Assembly (NCBI GenBank): GCA_015055785.1
Contig: SVHQ01000032.1
Location: forward strand, 1 to 12,640
DNA from: Clostridiales bacterium
Lineage (GTDB): Bacteria > Bacillota_A > Clostridia > Christensenellales > Borkfalkiaceae
DNA: 12,640 nucleotides
Reading direction: 5' to 3'
Numbering within the stretch: the first letter of the stretch is position 1; every line of letters begins with the position of its first letter. This document shows positions 3,211-11,182 of this stretch, piece after piece. The notes beneath the pieces were generated by a model, which saw only the letters and a program-made list of their open reading frames with translations, ran no database searches and was not told the DNA's origin. The translations under genes and the position numbers were made by a program.

Positions 3211-4386
3211 TTATTTTTCCGACAGTTCGTTCAACGTCGATAAAAACAAAGTCTTTAATTCTTCTTTCGGCTCCACGCCGTATGCCGAGCGATAAAAGGA
3301 CGTGAACAAAGCTTCGTCTGAAAGTCCCTTTCTCGATTCAAACTGCAATTCCTCTTCCGCTCGCACTTCCGCAAGCAGGGAAACAAGGTTGTCTTTCGCA
3401 GCCAAAGCCTGCGTATCCGACGAGGTAAGCGGCGAGGAAAGCACCAATCGCATTTCCACCAAATTGTCGGGATATTGCCCTAAAAGCGAGAGCGCCATTT
3501 CTACGTTCTCCGCTTGCAACCGAATCAGCTTTTTACCCGATTGTAAAGGTACGTCCTTTAAATTCTCCACGCCCTTTTTCGTTAAATCAAAAACTTTTAC
3601 GCCCTTATCCGCGCTCTCATCAAAAGAATACTGCAAGGGCGAACCGCTGTAATAACAATGATTTTTGCCCATGTGTTGTTTCTTATGTAGATGCCCAAGC
3701 GCAATGTAATCACTACTGGGAAGGGCGTCTATGGGAATGGCTCTCGCGCCGCCAAGGTCGATTTCCCGTTCGCTGTCCGAACAAGCGCCACCTGCCACAA
3801 AAATGTGCGCCATAAAGACGGAAGGCAGTTTTTCTACGTTGCCGCTCTCCCCTTCCTCCATCCACTTTCGCATCTGTTCGATATAGGGCAAATCGGACTT
3901 TGCTTCTTTAAATCTTGCCTCATTGGGATAGGGCAGGGTTGAGATGAACGCTTTTTCGCCCCGTTCATTTTCAAAAATTACATACCCCTTTCCCGAAAGG
4001 GTAGGACGGATTTTTCTCACGCCGAATGCGACACTATTTTCCGCGACGGGCAAAGCATTTCTTGCATTGCCGACGATATATATCCCTTGTTCTTCTGCCA
4101 AAGGCGCCGCCGCAGAGAGTCTGACACCGTCGTCGTGATTACCACTGATAATCAGCACAGCGCGCGAAGCTCCAGCCACTTTTTTGATTTTTTTAAAGAA
4201 CAGGTCTTCCGCCTCCGCACAAGGCGTGTAAGTGTCGAATACGTCGCCTGCGATAAGCACAAGTTCTATCCCCTCGCTATCGCAAATATCAACGATTTCA
4301 TCGAGGACAGCCGCTTGTTCTTCCAAGCGTTCGCGACCCATGAGCCGTTTACCGATATGCCAATCGGACGTATGCAAAATCTTCAT
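3211..4386 (-). CDS. sbcD: Nuclease SbcCD subunit D (Mre11-like nuclease)
   Basis: This is the metallophosphoesterase subunit, a Mn-dependent exo/endonuclease that acts with SbcC. All phosphodiesterase motifs are visible in its 391 residues: D8 and H10 (SDWHIG), G47-D48 (AGDVFD), G82-N83-H84-D85 (SGNHDD), H194 (MAHIF) and G231-H232-x-H234 (LGHLHKK). A capping/SbcC-binding C-terminal region follows from about 255, rich in charged residues. The length is normal for bacterial SbcD. The ATG is preceded by AGGAGGT at good spacing (about 6 bases). It is the first gene of the leftward sbcDC operon, with a candidate promoter at 4538-4566 and a leader of about 145 nt. Confidence 0.95.
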   Translation of the reverse strand: MKILHTSDWHIGKRLMGRERLEEQAAVLDEIVDICDSEGIELVLIAGDVFDTYTPCAEAEDLFFKKIKKVAGASRAVLIISGNHDDGVRLSAAAPLAEEQGIYIVGNARNALPVAENSVAFGVRKIRPTLSGKGYVIFENERGEKAFISTLPYPNEARFKEAKSDLPYIEQMRKWMEEGESGNVEKLPSVFMAHIFVAGGACSDSEREIDLGGARAIPIDALPSSDYIALGHLHKKQHMGKNHCYYSGSPLQYSFDESADKGVKVFDLTKKGVENLKDVPLQSGKKLIRLQAENVEMALSLLGQYPDNLVEMRLVLSSPLTSSDTQALAAKDNLVSLLAEVRAEEELQFESRKGLSDEALFTSFYRSAYGVEPKEELKTLFLSTLNELSEK

Positions 4387-4465
4387 GGTGCGACCTCCTC
4401 TTTTATCCTTTTTAACAGACTTTTCTACTTTTTTCGATTTTTTACAAAATCCTTTTCAAAACACC

Positions 4466-4494
4466 TTGCTTTTCCAATCGAAAAAAGGTATAAT
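4466..4494 (+). promoter_or_regulatory. Candidate sigma-A promoter for the DnaD-like gene
   Basis: TTGCTT (4466-4471) and TATAAT (4489-4494) are separated by 17 bases. The predicted start is near 4501, about 150 nt before the ATG at 4654. The transcript would run across the promoter of sbcDC, so the two are face to face rather than back to back. Confidence 0.65.
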
Positions 4495-4537
4495 AATCAT
4501 ATCTTCACTTCAGGGCGATATATACCTATTCTATTTT

Positions 4538-4566
4538 ATTATACACCATTTCTTCAAAGAAAGCAA
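4538..4566 (-). promoter_or_regulatory. Candidate sigma-A promoter for sbcDC
   Basis: Read on the minus strand, TTGCTT (4566-4561) and TATAAT (4543-4538) are separated by exactly 17 bases. The predicted start is near 4531, giving an sbcD leader of about 145 nt that crosses the opposing promoter at 4466-4494. The two promoters form an inverted repeat centred near 4516. Confidence 0.65.
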
Positions 4567-4653
4567 GGAAAGTGTTAAGGTAGAATAAAATTTTTCCCAA
4601 TTTACACAAACGCTCATCGCGATTTCGCATAAAAAATCATCGAGGAAACGCTT

Positions 4654-6396
4654 ATGGCTTTTTGTTCATTCTCAAAAGACACCGACAATACGTACACCCT
4701 TGTCGAAAATAAATTCATCACAAAGTATCTGCCCGAAGCAGATGGTTTTGCCGTGAAAGTGTATCTTTACGGGCTTTATTTGTGTGAAAACACGAATACA
4801 GATTTCTCCGTACGTTCAATGGCGGAAGTGTTAAAAACAACCGAACAAAAAATCATCGAAGCTTTCACCTTTTGGCAAGATTACGACCTCGTGGAAATTC
4901 TTTGCAAAGATCCGTTTACCGTACAGTATTTGCCCGTACGCTCTGCTGTCGGTCGGCCTAAAAAGGTGCGTTATGAGCAATACACCGATTTCAACAAGGA
5001 ATTGCAACGCAAGATGCAAAAGGTGGGGAAATTTATCTCCTCGAACGATTATGTTAAATATATGCACTTTTTGGAAGAGAATAATATTCAGCCGCAAGCT
5101 TTTTTGTTGATTGCAGAGTATTGCATCAACAAGCAAGGCGAAACCATCTCCCCTTCCTATATTTTCAATAAGGCAAAAAAATTAATTCGAAATGGTTTGA
5201 CCACCTATGAACAGGTGGAAAAAGAACTCTCCAATTACAACGCGCACGAAGGCGACCTCATGACGATTTTTGCCGCAATGTCCCTTTTCCAGAACGCGCC
5301 CGATGAAAACGATTACGCGCTGTATAAAAAATGGACGGAAACGCTCGGTTTCACCAAGGAAGGCATTGTAATCGCCGCGAAACATTTAAAACGCGGCAAT
5401 ATGACCACGCTGGATATATCTATAGAGGAACTATCGGAAAAAGGTAAAACGGAAGCAAAAGAAATCGAAGCGTATCTTTCCGACCGCGACGTTTTGGCAA
5501 ACCTCACTTTCCGTATTGGCAGAAAGCTTGGCGTCAAAGTGCATAATCCTGCACCCTATATCGATGAATACGTGGAAAAATGGTATACGTATGGTTTTGA
5601 AGAAGCTTCACTGTTGGATATTGCCTTGTTCTGTTTGAAAACAGCACGCGGTGATTTCGATTCTATGAACGCTGTCGTGCAAAACCTTTTCAACGAAGGA
5701 CTTGTTTCCCAAGAGGGCGTAAAAGATTTCCTCAAAGCGAAAAATGACGAACTGAAATTGTTCACGAAAATACAGGATATTTGCGGTTCTATTCGCAAAA
5801 ACACCACCAATCTTTCTTTGATTAAAACGTGGCGAGATTGGAAATTTAGCGACGAAATGATTTTGGAAGCGGCAAAACGCAGCGCAACAAGCGCGAGCCC
5901 TATCCCCTACATGAATAAAATTTTATCCGATTGGAAGCGCACGGAAGTTTATGCTTTGAAAGATATCCCCGACGCGCCTGCAAGCGGTGCAACGCCCAGC
6001 AAAACGGGGACTTCGCGCGGCTACGTCAACCCTGCCATCGAGGCGGTCAACGCCAAAGCCGACCGCGAACGTTATTATGCGCTTTTGCGTGAAAAAGCGC
6101 AAACAAGAGCTGAACGTTTCATCGCGAAAGCCAATGCAAACGAGAGATTCAAAGAAATCACGGCAGAACTTTCCAAGATGGAAATTGCCCTTGCCAAAGC
6201 GGAAGTATTCGAGCCTGCAACGCTCCCCTCTCTTTCCGCACAGAAGAAAAATTTGTTAGCGGAGCGCAAGAGTATTTTAATGAGCTTAGGCATCGAAGAA
6301 AAGGAATTAGTACCTCAATTCACCTGCAAAAAATGTTCGGACACAGGTTTTTTACCCAGCGGCACAGCGTGTACTTGTTACAAACCTGCAAATTGA
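4654..6396 (+). CDS. DnaD-domain replication protein with a DnaC/DnaI-like C-terminal zinc domain
   Basis: This is probably a primosomal protein that helps load the replicative helicase. In its 580 residues, 1-100 look like a DnaD-type winged-helix N-terminal domain. Two helical DnaD-like segments follow, at about 125-195 and 365-430. The second ends YMNKILSDWK, close to the usual DnaD C-terminal signature. A basic, low-complexity linker (about 430-460) leads to a helical stretch and then C558-x2-C561, DTGF, C573-x-C575. That arrangement (CxxC-x-DTG, then CxC, after a LAERK...LGI helix) is what I know from the N-terminal domain of Firmicute DnaC/DnaI helicase loaders, yet the protein stops there with no AAA+ ATPase. 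GAGGAA precedes the ATG at normal spacing. The gene stands alone between the divergent sbcDC operon and tRNA-Ser. Family assignment is good; its exact role is inferred. Confidence 0.8.
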   Translation: MAFCSFSKDTDNTYTLVENKFITKYLPEADGFAVKVYLYGLYLCENTNTDFSVRSMAEVLKTTEQKIIEAFTFWQDYDLVEILCKDPFTVQYLPVRSAVGRPKKVRYEQYTDFNKELQRKMQKVGKFISSNDYVKYMHFLEENNIQPQAFLLIAEYCINKQGETISPSYIFNKAKKLIRNGLTTYEQVEKELSNYNAHEGDLMTIFAAMSLFQNAPDENDYALYKKWTETLGFTKEGIVIAAKHLKRGNMTTLDISIEELSEKGKTEAKEIEAYLSDRDVLANLTFRIGRKLGVKVHNPAPYIDEYVEKWYTYGFEEASLLDIALFCLKTARGDFDSMNAVVQNLFNEGLVSQEGVKDFLKAKNDELKLFTKIQDICGSIRKNTTNLSLIKTWRDWKFSDEMILEAAKRSATSASPIPYMNKILSDWKRTEVYALKDIPDAPASGATPSKTGTSRGYVNPAIEAVNAKADRERYYALLREKAQTRAERFIAKANANERFKEITAELSKMEIALAKAEVFEPATLPSLSAQKKNLLAERKSILMSLGIEEKELVPQFTCKKCSDTGFLPSGTACTCYKPAN

Positions 6397-6465: not shown

Positions 6466-6498
6466 AAATAAGCGCTTTATGAAAGAGCACTTATTTAT

Positions 6499-6589
6499 GC
6501 AGAGATGTCTGAGTGGTTTAAGGAGCACGATTGGAAATCGTGTGTGCGCCTGAAACGTACCGGAGGTTCGAATCCTCTTCTCTGCGCCA
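6499..6589 (+). tRNA. tRNA-Ser (anticodon GGA)
   Basis: The acceptor arms GCAGAGA (6499-6505) and TCTCTGC (6579-6585) pair perfectly, followed by discriminator G and an encoded CCA. The anticodon stem CACGA/TCGTG encloses the loop TTGGAAA, giving anticodon GGA. The long variable arm (around 6545-6560) is typical of serine tRNAs, and the T-arm GGAGG-TTCGAAT-CCTCT is intact. Its 3' 61 bases lie inside the 62-bp attL repeat, so the element restored a functional tRNA on integration. Confidence 0.97.
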
Positions 6590-6590
6590 A
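6529..6590. repeat. attL: 62-bp direct repeat inside tRNA-Ser
   Basis: The repeat starts at GATTGGAAATCG in the anticodon stem-loop and ends one base past the CCA. It is identical to 10030-10091. The bases on either side differ (C versus T before it, G versus C after it), which fixes the limits. Strand exchange probably takes place in the anticodon stem-loop region. Confidence 0.95.
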
Positions 6591-6600
6591 GAAATAAAAG

Positions 6601-6632
6601 GGTTTCAGCTTTTTAGGCTGAAATCTTTTTTT
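6601..6632 (+). terminator. Intrinsic terminator after tRNA-Ser, supplied by the element
   Basis: GGTTTCAGC (6601-6609) pairs with GCTGAAATC (6617-6625), with one G-T pair, and is followed by seven T residues. It lies just inside attL, so it replaces the native tRNA terminator that integration moved beyond attR. It may also stop int transcripts arriving from the right. Confidence 0.8.
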
Positions 6633-6657
6633 ATGCCATTTTTCATGGAATACGATT

Positions 6658-7515
6658 TTAAAACTTTGGAAATAGCGTAAACTTTTCCAACTCTTTCCTT
6701 TTAAATTCATCTAAAACATGCATATATACATTCAAAGTCATATCTGCTGTTGAATGCCCGACAACCTGCTGACAAACATTTACATTCACACCGCATTCAG
6801 CACAACGAGTAATAAAAGTATGCCTTAAATCATGTAAATGATGATTGGGACAAAGCTTTTTAAAAGCTTTGCTTGGCGTTTGCAAAGAATAAGGAAACAC
6901 TCTTTTAGACCTTTCTTTCTCTTTCTTTGCCTGCTTTTTACGACCTTGCAATATTTCCTTAATATCTTCCGTCAATAGAATATGGCGAAAGCTATCGTCT
7001 GTTTTAGTGCCTTTAATAAGAATTAAATTGTTTTCATAATCAATGTCTTTCCATTCAAGGCTTAATGCTTCTGCCCTACGTACACCCGTATGCAAATAAA
7101 ACAGCATAAGCCATTTGTATTTTGACTTTTCAAGTGCTTGCAGAAACTCTCTTTGTTCTTTTACTGTGAGTGCTTTACTTTTTTTCTTTTTATAGGAAAT
7201 AGATTCAGTTAAAGAAACAAGATTTTTTTCAACTATACCTAATTTTTCAGCTTTTAAAAAGGCATTATTCCAAACTTGTCTTACATAAGTACGAGTACGA
7301 CTTTTAGGAATTGAAGATAACGCACTATCAATATCAAATAAAGTTATTTCTCTCATTTTTAAATCTTTTAGATATTGAGGCGTATGCAATCTTATTATCT
7401 GCTCTATATTGCGTATGCTGTTTTGGGCCAACGTAGGCTTTTTATATGTATTAAACCAAAGGGAAAGCCATTCACCAAAGGTTATAATTTTAAAATCAGG
7501 ACGGTTATTTTGCAT
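6658..7515 (-). CDS. int: Tyrosine recombinase / integrase
   Basis: It catalyses site-specific integration into, and probably excision from, tRNA-Ser. I chose the ATG at 7515 (285 residues, MQNNRPDFK) because AGGA sits 5-6 bases upstream. A longer in-frame reading from TTG at 7566 has no convincing ribosome binding site. Numbered from the ATG, an N-terminal helical DNA-binding region (about 10-105) precedes the catalytic domain. The catalytic set is complete: R146 (HTGVRRAE), K171 (GTKTDDS), H228-x-x-R231 (HDLRHTF), H254 (VVGHS) and nucleophile Y264 (LNVYMHV). The length is somewhat short for phage-type integrases. It lies directly beside attL and is the last gene of the leftward element operon. 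No excisionase-like gene is recognisable, though either small upstream gene could serve. Confidence 0.95.
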   Translation of the reverse strand: MQNNRPDFKIITFGEWLSLWFNTYKKPTLAQNSIRNIEQIIRLHTPQYLKDLKMREITLFDIDSALSSIPKSRTRTYVRQVWNNAFLKAEKLGIVEKNLVSLTESISYKKKKSKALTVKEQREFLQALEKSKYKWLMLFYLHTGVRRAEALSLEWKDIDYENNLILIKGTKTDDSFRHILLTEDIKEILQGRKKQAKKEKERSKRVFPYSLQTPSKAFKKLCPNHHLHDLRHTFITRCAECGVNVNVCQQVVGHSTADMTLNVYMHVLDEFKRKELEKFTLFPKF

Positions 7516-7689
7516 AATTTTCCTATTTGCTTTATTTGTGGGGCTGTCTTCCTCGGTAATGGGCAACCATTAAAGGGTTTCATATACGCCCTTTTGTAAT
7601 TCTTCTTTTCCGCTCTACCTTTACCAATAAACAATTCGCAAACAAGCTTTTAGCCCCATTAAAGAGAATGCTTTTCGCAAAATATACAC
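7516..7689. other. rep-int spacer with a GCAA-loop hairpin
   Basis: No gene is supported here. TAATGG (7557-7562), loop GCAA, then CCATTA (7567-7572) form a perfect six-pair hairpin with a GNRA-type tetraloop, about 40 bases upstream of the int ATG in its leader. CCATTAAAG occurs twice (7568 and about 7657), as does TTCGCAAA (about 7635 and 7674). These could be integrase arm sites or leader structure; neither role can be shown from the sequence. Confidence 0.35.
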
Positions 7690-8592
7690 TTATGCTAAAA
7701 GTTCCTTATACGAAATTTGAGTTAGCTTAAAATTCCAATCCCAAGGCGATATAATATTATCAGGCATAGGTATTAAATACGGCAATTTAGAACGGCGCAC
7801 ACGCTCTAAATATTCCATTAAATCACAAAAAACGTGAGCAGGGATTGAAAAGCATTTAGCATATTCCATATCACAATATGATGAAATGCCTTGCGCTTCC
7901 AACCATTCACAAACAAGCATTGCTTCATCATCATCATCAAAAACACTACGTTGCGGACGTTTCAAGTCCTTACTTGCAAAATATCTATGATTACATATTT
8001 TCAAACTATCCTTTGAAACATATTTAGCACAATATTTTGCAACGCGAACTCTATCCGACTTTGTGTTTTTGATTTCCGTTATTTGCGTAAAGCCAAATCT
8101 ATCACTTGATAAACGCCAATCTAATTTACCATTTTTATTTATAAATAAATCATCTTTATTCAAACAACGTACAATAAAATGAAAATGTAATCTATGCGTT
8201 TTAGAGCCATATTCAGGCACTAAAATATATTGAAATTCGGAAGCTCTTCTTTCCTTATAATGATTAAAAGCCTTTGTTATTTTATCTTTCATTCTTTGCG
8301 GATAGTTTATCAAATCCCCAACTTTTTCATCACCCAATGTTATCGTTCCAAAATAGTCAAAATCATTACACAAAGACAAATCAACAACATTTCTTTTAGC
8401 ACGTCTTAGAGCTATCCTTTGACTTTCACTATTGAAAACAACATTTCCGTCTTCGTCTGCGTCTATCATTTTGACACTTCTATTCACTTTGATTTCGGGG
8501 GTATTGTTATAATACCTTTTATTAAAGAAATTTATTCTATATTCCTTACGGCAATCCACCACGCTATAACACGTATCAAATCCAAAAACCAT
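7690..8592 (-). CDS. rep: HUH-endonuclease rolling-circle replication initiator (Rep)
   Basis: It is expected to nick one strand at the element origin, become 5'-linked through tyrosine and start rolling-circle replication. I chose the ATG at 8592 (300 residues), which has GGAG 8-9 bases upstream; a TTG five codons earlier overlaps that site. Motif I is YFGTITLGD (80-88). Motif II is LHFHF with the metal-binding H136-x-H138. Motif III is KYCAKYVSKD, with Y187 and Y191 three residues apart and lysines K190/K194. The Y-x3-Y pair and the AKY-V-x-K context recall phiX174 protein A and Microviridae-type initiators (superfamily I). No helicase domain is visible, so a host helicase such as PcrA would be needed. 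A GC-rich hairpin and a CTTGATTA motif lie just upstream. Family call is strong; closest relatives are unknown. Confidence 0.88.
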   Translation of the reverse strand: MVFGFDTCYSVVDCRKEYRINFFNKRYYNNTPEIKVNRSVKMIDADEDGNVVFNSESQRIALRRAKRNVVDLSLCNDFDYFGTITLGDEKVGDLINYPQRMKDKITKAFNHYKERRASEFQYILVPEYGSKTHRLHFHFIVRCLNKDDLFINKNGKLDWRLSSDRFGFTQITEIKNTKSDRVRVAKYCAKYVSKDSLKICNHRYFASKDLKRPQRSVFDDDDEAMLVCEWLEAQGISSYCDMEYAKCFSIPAHVFCDLMEYLERVRRSKLPYLIPMPDNIISPWDWNFKLTQISYKELLA

Positions 8593-8658
8593 TACAAAAA
8601 ACTCCAAACAACTTATACTTATATTTTTATTAAAAAATATATAATGGGTAAAAAACGT

Positions 8659-8672
8659 TACTTAATCAAGTA
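8659..8672 (-). other. Candidate Rep nick site (part of a double-strand origin)
   Basis: On the minus strand TACTTGATTAAGTA forms a TACTT/AAGTA stem exposing GATT. ACTTG-ATTA resembles the nick sequences of superfamily I initiators, in which cleavage falls after CTTG before AT (phiX174 ACTTG/ATATT; pC194 and pUB110 CTTG/ATA). It lies about 67 bases upstream of the rep ATG, on the strand that rep reads along. Confidence 0.5.
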
Positions 8673-8676
8673 GTAG

Positions 8677-8728
8677 GCGCGATGCGCCCCCCGATCCCCT
8701 TGGAATGGACGGGGGGGCGCATTCGCGC
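8677..8728. other. Large GC-rich inverted repeat, candidate Rep binding hairpin
   Basis: Arm 8677-8693 (GCGCGATGCGCCCCCCG) pairs with 8710-8728 over 17 pairs, with two single-base bulges, around a 16-base loop that contains CTTGG. The GC content is extreme against the AT-rich element. It starts four bases past the stop of the 132-residue gene and abuts the nick-site hairpin at 8659-8672. No T-run follows on either strand, which argues against an intrinsic terminator. A role in the origin, single-strand origin or packaging is more likely. Confidence 0.55.
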
Positions 8729-8732
8729 TGCA

Positions 8733-9131
8733 CTATATCTTCAACTTATGGGCACGAACAATATCAGACTTAGTTCCATTGGCATATTTATTTTCCAATT
8801 CAATCTGTTTTTGATACAAATCACTCAACATTTTTCGCAAATTACGAGAAGTAAACCCACGCAAATTATGCAAATAAAAAATAACTTCTAAATCTACTTC
8901 ATTTAGATTTTGAAACGTATACGCAAGTTCATTACGTTTAGTTTGCAATTCTTCTTTTGTAAAAGCAACTTTCATTTCTATCCATTCTTCTTTGCTCAAA
9001 GAGTGGTTTATAATACCGTCATAGTTTTCGATATAAGTATCAATCCTATCAAAATAATAATACAAAGACGGAACAGCACAAAAAGCCTGCTCTATTGTAT
9101 ATTTCTTTTCTTCTTTTTTAATTTTAATCAT
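8733..9131 (-). CDS. Small element protein of unknown function (132 aa)
   Basis: I do not recognise this protein. It is predicted largely helical and charged, with a lysine-rich start (MIKIKKEEKK), a Tyr-rich stretch near 24-40 and a segment at about 80-110 (VIFYLHNLRGFTSRNLRKML) that could be a helix-turn-helix. It has no signal peptide or membrane span. GGAG lies eight bases before the ATG. The ATG overlaps the stop of the preceding 86-residue gene as ATGA, the classic mark of translational coupling, so the pair is probably made together. By position (between the switch and rep) it could be a copy-number regulator, excisionase or replication accessory; that is only inference. Confidence 0.75.
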   Translation of the reverse strand: MIKIKKEEKKYTIEQAFCAVPSLYYYFDRIDTYIENYDGIINHSLSKEEWIEMKVAFTKEELQTKRNELAYTFQNLNEVDLEVIFYLHNLRGFTSRNLRKMLSDLYQKQIELENKYANGTKSDIVRAHKLKI

Positions 9132-9388
9132 ATAATACTCTCCATTTTTTTAGCTGTTTCTGCTGACGTTCGACAGCTGAAATATTCAAAACGATTTTCT
9201 TGTAAATTGCAATACATAACACGGAAACAACGTTTTGATGTCCGTATTACTGTAAAACAATCATAAACCTTATATCCTTTTCTACGATAAAAGAAATATC
9301 GATGAAATGTATAATCGTAAGAAAGAATATATTTACCTTTGAATTGTGGCGATAAATTCCACAACAACCAATGAACACGACCAACCAT
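9128..9388 (-). CDS. Small aromatic- and arginine-rich element protein of unknown function (86 aa)
   Basis: First gene of the leftward element operon. AAAGGA lies about 7 bases before the ATG. The 86 residues are unusually rich in Tyr, Phe, Arg and Cys (for example SYDYTFHRYFFYRRKGYKVY), with a likely beta-rich middle and a helical end (TSAETAKKMESII). There is no signal peptide, membrane span or recognised motif. It overlaps the next gene by ATGA. The basic, aromatic make-up would suit a nucleic-acid-binding protein, for example an excisionase or an ssDNA-binding factor, but nothing in the sequence proves this. Confidence 0.7.
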   Translation of the reverse strand: MVGRVHWLLWNLSPQFKGKYILSYDYTFHRYFFYRRKGYKVYDCFTVIRTSKRCFRVMYCNLQENRFEYFSCRTSAETAKKMESII

Positions 9389-9406
9389 ATTATTTTCCTT
9401 TATAAA

Positions 9407-9445
9407 GTAAAAGTCACCTACATAGGTGGTGTAGATGGCTTTTAC
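9407..9445. repeat. 39-nt imperfect hairpin in the element operon leader
   Basis: GTAAAAGTCACCTACA (9407-9422) and TGTAGATGGCTTTTAC (9430-9445) pair at 14 of 16 positions, plus one G-T wobble, around the loop TAGGTGG. It lies in the transcribed leader between the operon promoter and its first start codon. No T-run follows on either strand. CCACCTA recurs at 9498-9504 and is complementary to the loop, so the leader RNA could form a loop-leader interaction. Confidence 0.6.
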
Positions 9446-9509
9446 AGATTTATAAGTTATTTAGTTTTTTTGACAAATTAATAAATTAATAAATGCTCCA
9501 CCTACGCAT

Positions 9510-9524
9510 ATCTCTAAATGAGAT
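9510..9524. promoter_or_regulatory. Operator O1 (ATCTC-N5-GAGAT)
   Basis: Perfect inverted repeat ATCTC TAAAT GAGAT, covering the predicted start point (about 9524) of the leftward operon promoter. It shares spacing and half-sites with O2 and O3, so it is a likely binding site of the XRE repressor at 9626. Confidence 0.65.
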
Positions 9525-9530
9525 AAATAT

Positions 9531-9559
9531 ATTATACTATCTCAAAATGAGTTTGTCAA
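9531..9559 (-). promoter_or_regulatory. Main leftward promoter of the element operon
   Basis: On the minus strand TTGACA (9559-9554) and TATAAT (9536-9531) are both perfect consensus, with a 17-base spacer. Operator O2 lies entirely in the spacer and O1 at the start point, so bound repressor would block it. It is expected to drive the 86- and 132-residue genes, rep and int. Confidence 0.85.
9539..9553. promoter_or_regulatory. Operator O2 (ATCTC-N5-GAGTT)
   Basis: ATCTC AAAAT GAGTT, the second of the 15-bp repeats, centred 29 bp from O1 and filling the spacer of the leftward promoter. Confidence 0.65.
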
Positions 9560-9578
9560 CAGCTTTTATGCAAAAATA

Positions 9579-9607
9579 TTGAAAAACTTCTCAAAATGTG
9601 ATAAAAT
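9579..9607 (+). promoter_or_regulatory. Promoter of the element XRE repressor
   Basis: TTGAAA (9579-9584) and TAAAAT (9602-9607) with a 17-base spacer that contains operator O3. The predicted start near 9614 leaves a very short leader before the ATG at 9626, with AAGGTG as ribosome binding site. The layout implies autoregulation. Confidence 0.7.
9588..9602. promoter_or_regulatory. Operator O3 (TTCTC-N5-GTGAT)
   Basis: TTCTC AAAAT GTGAT, the third and most divergent 15-bp repeat, centred 49 bp from O2 within the repressor promoter spacer. It would be a weaker site used to limit repressor synthesis. Confidence 0.55.
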
Positions 9608-9625
9608 TTTAGTTAAGGTGATATT

Positions 9626-10015
9626 ATGAGAACAAAATTCGCAGAAAACTTTTCCGATATTCTTAAAATTAAGAATATTTCCCAATCTCAATTTGCAAGA
9701 TTATATGGTGTAAAGCAAAATACCGTTTCACAATGGGCAAATGGTAAAAGAGAACCGACATACCATGATTTATTGCGTATCTGCACTTTATTTGATATTG
9801 AAATACATGAAATATTAGGATATACTCCACGAGTAAAGAAAGCAATTTTAAGAGATATTATAGGAAGCAATCAAGAATTCCAAAAACAGCAAAAGCAACT
9901 AATCGAAAAAATGGAAGAAAACAAAAGTACTCTTACTGAAATACAATATGCAATCGAAGAATTATACCAAAAGACACTTGAAGAATATAAAACTATTTTC
10001 GGTTTTACCGATTGA
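9626..10015 (+). CDS. XRE-family (Cro/C1-type) repressor of the element
   Basis: DNA-binding regulator expected to hold the element quiet by binding the 15-bp operators upstream. Of its 129 residues, about 8-65 form a helix-turn-helix domain. The scanning helix is SQSQFARLYGV (19-29), and KQNTVSQWANGKREP (30-44) spans the turn and recognition helix. Residues of about 75-125 are Gln/Glu/Lys-rich and probably form a dimerising coiled coil. There is no S24 or ImmA-type peptidase domain, so induction cannot be by RecA-driven self-cleavage. AAGGTG precedes the ATG by five bases. It is the only rightward gene of the element, transcribed away from the operon, and stops 14 bases before attR. Confidence 0.9.
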   Translation: MRTKFAENFSDILKIKNISQSQFARLYGVKQNTVSQWANGKREPTYHDLLRICTLFDIEIHEILGYTPRVKKAILRDIIGSNQEFQKQQKQLIEKMEENKSTLTEIQYAIEELYQKTLEEYKTIFGFTD

Positions 10016-10017
10016 TT

Positions 10018-10032
10018 ATCTCATTATGTGAT
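10018..10032. promoter_or_regulatory. Possible fourth operator at the attR edge
   Basis: ATCTC ATTAT GTGAT has the same 5-5-5 layout as O1-O3 and overlaps the first three bases of attR. One such match could arise by chance in AT-rich DNA, so this is tentative. Confidence 0.3.
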
Positions 10033-10091
10033 TGGAAATCGTGTGTGCGCCTGAAACGTACCGGAGGTTCGAATCCTCTTCTCTGCGCCAA
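10030..10091. repeat. attR: 62-bp direct repeat, tRNA-Ser 3' fragment
   Basis: Identical to 6529-6590. It contains the anticodon loop through the CCA of tRNA-Ser but lacks the 5' half, so it is not a functional tRNA. It marks the distal end of the element. Confidence 0.95.
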
Positions 10092-10098
10092 CAAAAAA

Positions 10099-10124
10099 CA
10101 CACCTCTAAGGGTGTGTTTTTTTT
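10099..10124 (+). terminator. Probable native tRNA-Ser terminator, displaced by the element
   Basis: CACACC (10099-10104), a short loop, then GGTGTG (10111-10116) and eight T residues, flanked by an A-run on the other side. It begins eight bases after attR, the same relation to the tRNA tail as the element-borne terminator at 6601-6632 has to the intact tRNA. Confidence 0.8.
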
Positions 10125-10252
10125 GTTGCATTGTGAAGAGATTGAGACCTTTCCGCATACGCGGAGGTTCGCGCGAACAATGCGCTTTATCTATATTAAA
10201 ATCACCGACGAAGGCTCGTAGCATTGTGAAGCTTTGTTGCTTTGCAACAATC
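10125..10252. other. Structured non-coding segment between attR and the third tRNA tail
   Basis: No credible gene. GCATTGT (10128-10134) can pair with ACAATGC (10177-10183) and recurs at 10221, in an 11-bp direct repeat GCATTGTGAAG. Nested inside, ACCT(TT)CCGC pairs with GCGGAGGT around ATAC. TTGTTGC-TTT-GCAACAA (10234-10250) is a perfect seven-pair hairpin. The two alternative GCATTGT partners allow mutually exclusive folds. It may be a remnant of an older element or a species-specific repeat. Confidence 0.4.
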
Positions 10253-10269
10253 TCCTCTTCTCTGCGCCA
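10253..10269. repeat. Third partial copy of the tRNA-Ser 3' end
   Basis: TCCTCTTCTCTGCGCCA matches the last 17 bases of the tRNA including CCA. It lies 178 bp beyond the end of the tRNA sequence in attR. A 17-base match at such a place is unlikely by chance, so it is probably the scar of an earlier integration or a decayed att site. Confidence 0.65.
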
Positions 10270-10273
10270 TTTT

Positions 10274-10543
10274 TTAATTATCTCTTATATCCTTAACAAA
10301 ATTTTCAGGAAACAATTCTTCCATTGAAACTTCTAAAATTTTTGCTATCACAAAAAGCTCCTTATCCGTTGCGCTACGCACTTGTCCTTCCAACTTAGAA
10401 TAGCTTGTTGGATTCATATCACAACCCATCACTTGTATTTTAGCAATAAACTCTTTTTGTTTTATTCCTCTCTCTTTACGCAATCTCTCTATTTTTTCCC
10501 CTACAACATTAGCCGTTCCATATACTTGCTTCCTTATTTTCAT
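10274..10543 (-). CDS. XRE-family transcriptional regulator (89 aa)
   Basis: A single helix-turn-helix domain protein. Residues of about 12-75 form the fold: GEKIERLRKERGIKQKEFIAKI, a turn, then NPTSYSKLEGQVRSATD with the recognition helix, and a closing KELFVIAKILEVSMEELF. It has no effector or protease domain. The ATG has TAGGAC upstream at fair spacing. It is divergent from the exported-protein gene at 10667, with 123 bp between holding consensus promoter elements and two palindromes that are its likely operators. It begins just past the third tRNA tail copy, so it may belong to an older island, and it is not closely similar to the element repressor at 9626. Confidence 0.88.
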   Translation of the reverse strand: MKIRKQVYGTANVVGEKIERLRKERGIKQKEFIAKIQVMGCDMNPTSYSKLEGQVRSATDKELFVIAKILEVSMEELFPENFVKDIRDN

Positions 10544-10572
10544 TATAATGTCCTACATTTTTATTTTTTGCA

Positions 10573-10601
10573 ATTATACTCTAAAAAATACTTGACATAA
10601 T
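10573..10601 (-). promoter_or_regulatory. Possible promoter of the 89-residue regulator
   Basis: A consensus TATAAT on the minus strand (10578-10573) has only a weak -35 (TTATGT or similar near 10600-10595), which touches the palindrome at 10600-10614. A repressor bound there could act on both divergent promoters. Confidence 0.4.
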
Positions 10602-10620
10602 TCCAAAATGGAATTATAAT
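10592..10620 (+). promoter_or_regulatory. Consensus promoter of the exported-protein gene
   Basis: TTGACA (10592-10597), a 17-base spacer and TATAAT (10615-10620), all perfect consensus. The palindrome 10600-10614 fills the spacer, so the promoter should be strong but tightly repressible. Confidence 0.85.
10600..10614. promoter_or_regulatory. Operator A (ATTCC-N5-GGAAT)
   Basis: Perfect inverted repeat ATTCC AAAAT GGAAT in the promoter spacer. It has the same 5-5-5 layout and AAAAT centre as O2 of the element but different half-sites, so it is probably read by the divergent XRE regulator at 10274-10543. Confidence 0.65.
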
Positions 10621-10627
10621 TAAAATA

Positions 10628-10642
10628 ATTCCGAAATGGAAT
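10628..10642. promoter_or_regulatory. Operator B (ATTCC-N5-GGAAT)
   Basis: Second perfect copy, ATTCC GAAAT GGAAT, centred 28 bp from operator A and just downstream of the start point. The near three-turn spacing would allow cooperative binding on one face of the helix. Confidence 0.65.
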
Positions 10643-10666
10643 AAAAAATATAGGACGGTTTTACTT

Positions 10667-11182
10667 ATGAAAAAATTTTGGAAAACGTTACTCTCTTGTT
10701 TGTTAATGATTATCTCGACATTATCAATCTGTTGTTGCGCACCCAAGCCTGCATTGGATATTGACGATGCAAAAGATGCATTAGAAGATGCTGATTATGA
10801 TGTTGAATTTATCACCAACCCCGATACCGATGAGGTAGAGTTCGCCGAATCTATCGACAAATACCTTACAGCTGAAGGCGAGAATGATGAATACATCTGC
10901 ATGATTTTATTCGACTCTGCAACCATGGCAAAAAAATATTATAACACCTTATTATATAGCGTCGAAAGTGAAATCAAACAGATGGAAGCAAACATTAAAG
11001 CATGCGAATATTATCTTAAAAAATACGATGAAAAAATTAAAAGCGATGAACGCGATGAAATTGAAGATTGGATTAAAGAAGATAAAAAAGATATTGAAAA
11101 ATATGAAGAAGAATATTGCATCGGCAGAAGCGGAAAGCTCGTATGGTACGGCTCCATTGACGCTATAAAAGATACAAAATAA
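10667..11182 (+). CDS. Small exported acidic protein, possible lipoprotein (171 aa)
   Basis: I do not recognise the family. Residues 1-24 look like a signal peptide: MKKFWK, a hydrophobic core, then three consecutive cysteines at 22-24 (ICCCAP). A lipid anchor on one of them is possible, but the residue before C22 is Ile, so the lipobox is not canonical. The mature part is strongly acidic (DIDDAKDALEDADYDVEF), followed by a long Lys/Glu-rich helix at about 105-150 that is probably coiled coil. Weak AGGA lies about 11 bases before the ATG. It has its own repressible consensus promoter and a strong terminator, so it forms a single-gene unit controlled by the divergent XRE regulator. It probably sits at the outer face of the membrane. 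Confidence 0.7.
   Translation: MKKFWKTLLSCLLMIISTLSICCCAPKPALDIDDAKDALEDADYDVEFITNPDTDEVEFAESIDKYLTAEGENDEYICMILFDSATMAKKYYNTLLYSVESEIKQMEANIKACEYYLKKYDEKIKSDERDEIEDWIKEDKKDIEKYEEEYCIGRSGKLVWYGSIDAIKDTK

Follow-up and report, generated by a model that had tools for sequence, protein, structure and literature searches.

How does an element of 3.5 kb that encodes an integrase and a rolling-circle initiator, and in which no virion gene is recognised, spread, and to what is it related? The question is raised by contig SVHQ01000032.1 of a Clostridiales bacterium, probably one from the gut (assembly GCA_015055785.1), whose 12,640 nucleotides were analysed as a whole and are called the window here. 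The window carries such an element in a gene for tRNA-Ser(GGA). The element is explained best, with moderate confidence, as an integrative, capsid-free rolling-circle element of the inovirus lineage with a satellite-like way of living, whose spread probably depends on a filamentous phage or some other helper.

Integration in tRNA-Ser(GGA) and relatives of the encoded proteins

The target gene (6499-6589, + strand), the only tRNA gene in the window, was found by ARAGORN and by Rfam (RF00005) and remains whole at the attL side. The attachment (att) copies belong to a direct repeat pair at 6529/10030, which is 69 nt long at 97% identity, includes 62 perfect nt and has a spacing of 3,501 bp. The attL copy (6529-6590, +) extends from the anticodon loop to one base beyond the tRNA 3' end, and the attR copy (10030-10091, +) repeats the 3' part of the gene. 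From left to right, the unit between them contains genes for an integrase (Int, -), a Rep protein (-), a 132-amino-acid (aa) protein (-), an 86-aa protein (-) and a divergent XRE repressor (+). An earlier note on this DNA had described perfect 62-bp att repeats bounding a complete-looking unit of Int, Rep, candidate origin and repressor switch, which was confirmed by the repeat, the ARAGORN and Rfam results and the Pfam matches.

Of 301 genomes in the family to which the first relative belongs, 265 gave a match at E <= 1e-60 to the left neighbour of the element site, a DnaB_2/DnaD-like gene (4654-6396). The 30 best of these loci, all from one genus, were surveyed for empty sites. A tRNA-Ser gene was present in the flank of 22 loci and absent from the fetched flank of 8, in two of which (L018 and L024) tRNA and element lie further out. 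One of the 22 stops at a contig end, and 21 have the tRNA-Ser plus the right flank. Element-like sequence followed the tRNA in two (L027 of G163 and L038 of G001) and was absent from 19, so that the empty site, whose absence from close relatives the earlier note had named beforehand as evidence against its reading, was present in 19 of the 21 usable loci. A terminator-like hairpin lies directly 3' of the tRNA in 17 of the 19 element-free loci. In L023, L030 and L033, the sequence after the tRNA matched the window sequence after attR with scores of 81-90, versus 15-16 for the element interior; the remaining element-free loci matched both more weakly. These hairpins and flanks indicate that the element was inserted between the tRNA and its terminator. 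With an att repeat that restores the tRNA, an internal integrase and an empty site in relatives, the unit is a tyrosine-integrase element in a tRNA gene.

The integrase (6658-7515, -; 285 aa) matched PF00589 (E 1e-23) and PF14659 and is 45-64% identical to 15 aligned integrases, every one adjoining a tRNA-Ser. The Rep (7690-8592, -; 300 aa) is an HUH two-tyrosine protein of the ORF2/G2P class (PF23343 REP_ORF2-G2P, E 2e-13) with the motifs RLHFHF and YCAKYVSK. The open frames of Int and Rep extend to TTG 7566 and TTG 8607, respectively, which had been given as their starts; homologues suggest instead that ATG 7515 and ATG 8592 are likelier. In family scans of the window proteins, no pI/Zot gene was matched among the open reading frames (ORFs) of the element, and no relaxase family was matched in the general scans, oriT not having been searched for. 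An FtsK/TraB-type DNA translocase was not found among the element ORFs. No short coat protein with a single transmembrane segment was recognised, the only two strongly hydrophobic ORFs lying wholly or mostly antisense to element genes. The earlier statement that the unit is without capsid, relaxase or coupling gene agrees with these scans, in which none was recognised.

A tblastn search with Rep against 50,697 phage records matched 23 of them, by name 13 bajarodino viruses, 8 Dulem viruses and 2 Microviridae. Six of the matching Dulem and bajarodino records were opened, and all six were filed as Inoviridae. The scan of genome contigs gave two loci. Locus L005 (CAJFQM010000018.1, G001), from a metagenome-assembled genome of a chicken Clostridia member, contains a 7.0-kb element with a 59-bp att repeat. 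As in the window, it lies at this tRNA-Ser, with DnaD, SbcD and SbcC genes as neighbours. Its Int and Rep are 63% and 45% identical to those of the window, and its further genes encode a 276-aa Walker protein, proteins of 109, 508 and 125 aa and an XRE protein. The 276-aa protein aligns over 97% of its length, at 45% identity, with the Zot encoded in the circular record bajarodino virus 1 and fell below the cut-off for Zot in Pfam (E 0.02) and for Zot-like proteins in PHROGs (E 0.1). From this gene content, L005 is taken as a full inovirus prophage. Locus L075 has the same integrase class, a Rep_1 protein and a membrane Walker protein, which is 38% identical to that of L112 and was not called Zot by Pfam or PHROGs; judged by these genes, it is a second inovirus-like prophage with this integrase class.

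The 86-aa protein (9128-9388, -), which is basic (net charge +10) and whose gene overlaps the 132-aa gene by 4 bp, has 11 database relatives with 55-89% identity. Its profile matched 6 of the 301 genomes, in G174 on the Zot-bearing contig. Relatives were found by tblastn in the circular bajarodino viruses 31 (35%) and 73 (32%) and in L109 and L111-L115, of which L109 encodes Zot and L112 a Zot-type Walker protein, the L112 relative adjoining Rep_1. Further ORFs with strongly hydrophobic stretches are present in all six of these loci. The size, charge and setting of the 86-aa protein lead us to guess that it binds single-stranded DNA (ssDNA). The matches in L005, in circular inoviruses and in L109 and L111-L115 indicate that the Int, Rep, 86-aa and XRE classes all occur in inoviruses or inovirus-like prophages. 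For the 132-aa protein (8733-9131, -), one database relative (75%) and one in the mini-element L081 (30%) were found; neither it nor the 86-aa protein matched a curated family in the family scans. The repressor (9626-10015, +), of the XRE/Cro-CI type (HTH_3, E 4e-12) and divergent from the operon, is 45% identical over its length to the XRE protein of the mini-element L086.

The nearest kin found, by the phage matches of Rep and by L005, are inoviruses and not the actinobacterial pSAM2-like elements with which the earlier note had compared the element. Kinship with pSAM2 and the actinobacterial integrative and conjugative elements (ICEs) was ruled out by the phage-type Rep and the lack of an FtsK-like gene, and a Rep_1 plasmid (pC194-type, PF01446) by the assignment of Rep to PF23343. 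The plasmid search gave five records with Rep matches of 25-30%. A search for distant DNA similarity in phages, made with 4 kb around the element, gave two short matches, inside the tRNA stretch.

Several observations were made on the surroundings of such genes. The inovirus-like prophages L111, L112, L113 and L148, from three genomes, adjoin genes that look by eye like those for glycogen phosphorylase or synthase. G201 has two Zot-type genes a few kb apart. In L091 and L092, the same broad Rep class lies near large serine recombinases, in L092 also near restriction-modification-like genes (by eye).

The resident right flank of the element (10092-10269, +) consists of the terminator plus a segment whose end resembles the 3' end of tRNA-Ser. 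This third copy of the tRNA 3' end (17 bp, 10253-10269) lies outside the element; it was ruled out as the remnant of a second element, as element-free relatives have a similar flank after their tRNA. A stretch of 172-207 nt after the tRNA-Ser terminator is present in the window and in 9 of the 22 relatives (L016, L021, L023, L025, L028, L030, L034, L037 and L043). It occurs in two length classes and closes with a copy of 9-21 nt from the 3' end of the tRNA, CCA included. It might be a structured RNA that resembles a tRNA, or else a tiny repeat directed to the tRNA.

A family of small integrase elements

The integrase was detected in 31 of the 301 genomes at E <= 1e-40. The surroundings were viewed in 17 of these (16 plus G001 as L005), and 15 of the 17 loci were aligned with the window to give 16 rows, L085 (G103) and L090 (G088) being left out. 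All 16 aligned loci lie beside a tRNA-Ser (GGA or CGA). A long exact att copy of 50-62 bp is present in 11 (window, L005, L074, L075, L077, L078, L080, L081, L082, L083 and L086); L079, L084 (cut by the contig end) and L088 have shorter pieces, and none is present in the fetched part of L076 and L087. In all 13 relatives with a second att copy, it starts at tRNA position 32-33 (in L079 in two pieces).

The content of these loci differed. A Zot or Zot-type protein is encoded in 2 of the 16 (L005 and L075). A Rep of the G2P class without a recognised Zot was found in 7 (window, L076, L077, L078, L080, L086 and L088), and no Rep was recognised in 6 (L074 and L081, as well as L079, L082, L083 and L084, which have another protein pair). 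L087 was assigned to none of these classes. Thus, 6 of the 15 relatives are Int-Rep elements without a recognised Zot, five of which are bounded and 2.4-3.0 kb long; the periods of the six bounded Rep-bearing elements, including the window, are 2,450-3,501 bp, and for L076 no far end was found. The earlier note had regarded such a stripped-down version as unusual in a Firmicute. The element does not stand alone, as others with a similar Int-Rep-XRE make-up were found repeatedly in related Clostridia. We give an even chance to the broader proposal that a class of ~2.4-3.5-kb integrating inovirus satellites exists in gut Clostridia, with one tRNA-Ser integrase family, varied inovirus-type Rep-origin modules and, in some members, the att site of an inovirus.

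The mini-element Reps occupy three places in the Rep tree (33 rows, three of them with long branches). Those of the window and L080 fall in a clade with L005 (100/99), and those of L077, L078, L086 and L088 near the bajarodino viruses (89/90). That of L076 groups with L093 (100/99), a locus labelled inovirus-like solely on account of a neighbouring Walker protein that has a hydrophobic stretch. The Int tree did not resolve inovirus versus mini-element ancestry, as 9 of its 13 inner branches are open.

These distributions bear on the explanation that the element is a decayed inovirus prophage, from which the morphogenesis genes have been deleted and which can no longer move. Such a history would account for the absence of virion genes and for the presence of four of the five gene classes also in inoviruses or inovirus-like prophages, and the lack of a certain helper (see below) would fit it as well. 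However, the five frames, both att copies, the promoter-like site, the operators and the predicted origin look intact, and the Rep cluster (90%) is present on 18 contigs. Moreover, several genomes share the compact Int-Rep-XRE order, and the Reps concerned fall in three parts of the Rep tree, which would hardly be expected from independent decay. We therefore consider decay unlikely.

The identity of Int to that of the window was 58-65% in 8 hosts with a DnaD identity of at least 60% and 57-64% in 4 hosts in which DnaD identity is below 50%. Being alike in close and distant hosts, it suggests spread without a visible vehicle. This could be the mark of a self-sufficient cryptic element, passed on mostly vertically and by natural DNA uptake, whose Rep would serve only for copy-number bursts that aid integration. 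There was, however, some host signal when Int and host DnaD identities were compared over 19 of the 31 genomes (Spearman 0.51, p 0.025), 12 having been dropped for a partial or distant Int match or for want of a DnaD identity. This explanation is the least credible of those considered, and we attach very little weight to it.

Two loci of the integrase family showed further peculiarities. In L082 and L083 (G158 and G223), the element and the tRNA-Ser are inverted relative to DnaD in comparison with the window, L005, L079 and L084. L083 also has RelB/ParE-like toxin-antitoxin pairs, recognised by eye, at ~8434-8956 within the att bounds and at ~4060-4592 outside them.

Predicted origin, control sites and a possible cycle

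The origin is predicted at ~8659-8728 (-). It comprises the putative nick site CTACTTG/ATTAA (8659-8673, -), which the predicted fold places in a small hairpin loop, and beside it a GC-rich 20-pair hairpin (8677-8728, -), which is a candidate for the origin and/or a packaging signal. The DNA fold of the latter had a z of -5.8, and none of 200 shuffles was equally stable. In an automatic scan of eight loci, a strong hairpin was found only in the window and L088; GC-rich stretches were seen elsewhere by eye. The nick site presumably resembles that of phiX174. The cleavage position was taken from known CTTGATA sites. CTTGATA is reported as the nicking site of Rep_1-type replicons (PMC10378824), and the CTTGAT core in the window is of this kind although its Rep belongs to PF23343.

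CTACTTGATTAA occurs in the window once exactly (8662-8673, -) and once with one mismatch (12405), where 0.04 occurrences with at most one mismatch were expected. The nonamer CTTGATTAA is exact upstream of Rep in the window, L005, L080, L086 and L088, agrees at 8 of 9 positions in L077 and L078 and at 7 of 9 in L076. On both strands of the eight loci (124,510 bp), six exact copies of the nonamer are present, five before Rep and one elsewhere in L078. A longer origin motif of 20 nt, ACTTGATTAACGGACATTTT, is identical in the inovirus L005 and the mini-element L080. In L089, which counts as inovirus-like owing to a neighbouring Walker protein, the sequence is CTACTTGATATA, and in L006 it is CTACTTGATAGA, after a GC-rich stretch.

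The leftward operon is faced by the promoter-like site TTGACA-17-TATAAT (9531-9559, -), a 12/12 match to the sigma-70 consensus and the sole one of that quality in a scan that gave 18 sites overall versus 18.4 expected. Three operator-like sites TCTCNAAATGWGA (9511-9523, 9540-9552 with one mismatch, and 9589-9601) extend across both divergent promoter regions and overlie this promoter and a weaker promoter-like site of the XRE gene. With at most one mismatch, 0.17 such sites were expected, and none of 200 shuffles reached three. Sites of the TCTCAAAATGAG type were read by eye upstream of the operon in L086. The consensus scan gave seven terminator-like hairpins in 6480-10300 versus 1.8 expected. 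One of them (6603-6623) lies just inside attL, between the tRNA and the end of Int. Another (9415-9437, -) lies in the leader of the leftward operon and may be an attenuator. Leaders upstream of Rep in L086, L088, L077 and L078 have an apparent hairpin followed by CTTTTAC or T runs (by eye); attenuator or counter-transcript control by such leader hairpins is possible.

From this arrangement, a cycle can be proposed in which XRE would repress the leftward promoter. Upon derepression, Int would recombine attL with attR in the tRNA and so release the element as a circle of 3.5 kb, and Rep would nick CTACTTG/ATTAA beside the GC hairpin to produce ssDNA circles by rolling circle. These would probably be extruded in the filaments of a helper inovirus, possibly one that integrates at this tRNA as well, and the extruded element would then reintegrate in a new host. 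Packaging by a helper inovirus is the least certain of these steps.

Outside the element, at 10274-11182, a second XRE gene (-) is divergent from a gene (+) that appears by eye to encode a lipoprotein. Two similar palindromes, AATTCCRAAATGGAAT, lie between them within 10588-10643.

Search for a helper and comparison with known systems

A helper was sought with three Zot profiles, which do not cover other Zot types, in the six other genomes with Rep-bearing mini-elements (G143, G246, G261, G131, G157 and G165). The outcome weighs against an inovirus satellite, as do several other results. A certain co-resident inovirus was found in none of the six with the first profile (E <= 1e-8) and in none with the second; the third gave one weak match (G157, E 2e-8), whose surroundings do not settle its identity. 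Zot of the L005 type was present in 3 of the 301 genomes (E <= 1e-8), compared with 31 for the integrase, and the window-type Rep profile matched only 5 of the 301 (E <= 1e-10) and, within the genus, 3 of 57 genomes. The two Microviridae among the 23 phage matches of Rep also count here. Concerning the origin, the motif of L005 lies 506 nt upstream of Rep and not beside it, in comparison with 17-63 nt in other loci. The window has only TACTTGATTAA in common with the 20-nt motif of L005 and L080, and several circular inoviruses have no clear origin motif. No close relative emerged from IMG/VR: nothing was found with the single Rep or with the Rep alignment, the Int alignment found two loci with 27-28% identity, and the origin patterns found 0, 5 and 19 stretches. 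The latter are attributed to chance, as none encodes a relative of Rep, Zot, Int, the 86-aa protein, the 132-aa protein or XRE by tblastn.

A further such point is locus L006 (Pseudoflavonifractor), in which a 29% identical Rep and the core CTACTTGAT lie beside an FtsK-like 461-aa ATPase and an integrase. This pairing indicates that the Rep module is not exclusive to inoviruses, and it favours a different explanation, that of an integrative rolling-circle plasmid-like element whose Rep, bound to the strand that it has nicked, would be recruited by the coupling protein that a resident ICE supplies. Rep could then act as relaxase, and the inovirus likeness would reflect common replication modules only. 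ConQ of ICEBs1 is described as interacting with the Rep proteins of pC194, pUB110 and pTA1060 in a review (PMC5714925), and the absence of a certain helper inovirus from the six mini-element genomes points in the same direction. The Rep of the window is, however, PF23343 and not Rep_1, and no relaxase family was matched. Moreover, the 86-aa gene and the integrase class are common to inoviruses or inovirus-like prophages, and the integration site is that of the inovirus L005. Mobilisation by conjugation is therefore a possible but rather doubtful explanation. Of the earlier proposal, the helper-dependent satellite is the best-fitting reading, and its packaging or mobilisation by a helper is a possibility.

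If these elements are satellites, the satellite-helper biology of filamentous phages extends to Clostridia and to integrase-borne elements of a few kb, which would be among the smallest integrating satellites and whose size permits study gene by gene. They would also hint that filamentous phages carry DNA between uncultured gut Clostridia. The origin motif identical in L005 and L080 offers a direct test of Rep sharing. A large inovirus survey was entered via pI/Zot, in its words "the only conserved marker gene" of known Inoviridae (PMC6813254). With pI/Zot as the entry point, derivatives lacking Zot would escape surveys of this kind. Among the matches listed from the literature on satellites and integrating rolling-circle elements, the titles and abstract openings name no integrase-borne inovirus satellite in Clostridia.

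Among known systems, RS1 has an HUH Rep, a phage-type repressor and no virion genes. Like RS1, which accompanies CTXphi in Vibrio cholerae, the element is small and integrating, has its own HUH Rep and a repressor, lacks recognised virion genes and has a replication module akin to that of inoviruses, here those of related hosts (L005 and the circular inoviruses). In contrast to RS1, which relies on host Xer and has the antirepressor RstC, it has its own tRNA-Ser integrase, a Rep of another family and a host in Clostridia. RS1 is described as a satellite of CTXphi with an antirepressor, and CTXphi as having the HUH Rep RstA and the repressor RstR (PMC4439123). RstC had no family match in the general family scans, no search aimed at RstC having been made. 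With its own integrase at tRNA-Ser and no match to RstC in those scans, the element is not filed as a relative of RS1 but would work like it.

With the inovirus L005, the element shares Int (63%), Rep (45%), the XRE class, the site, the att repeat and the flanking genes. The 7.0-kb L005 differs in having Zot/pI and further membrane proteins, neither of which was recognised in the window element. A system of Schmid et al. (2024) is, by its title, reportedly a plasmid satellite of an inovirus; on that basis, both are capsid-free replicons of the inovirus-satellite kind, the plasmid being autonomous and the element integrating. The ICEs of the pSAM2 type in actinobacteria combine an integrase acting at a tRNA gene with a rolling-circle Rep. 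The element differs from them in having no FtsK-like transfer gene, a Rep of the phage ORF2/G2P class and a much smaller size. Phage-inducible chromosomal islands have an integrase, a divergent repressor and no capsid genes, all of which apply to the element. In contrast to these islands, no primase-type replication gene or packaging-redirecting gene was recognised in it, and its kin are ssDNA filamentous phages and not tailed phages.

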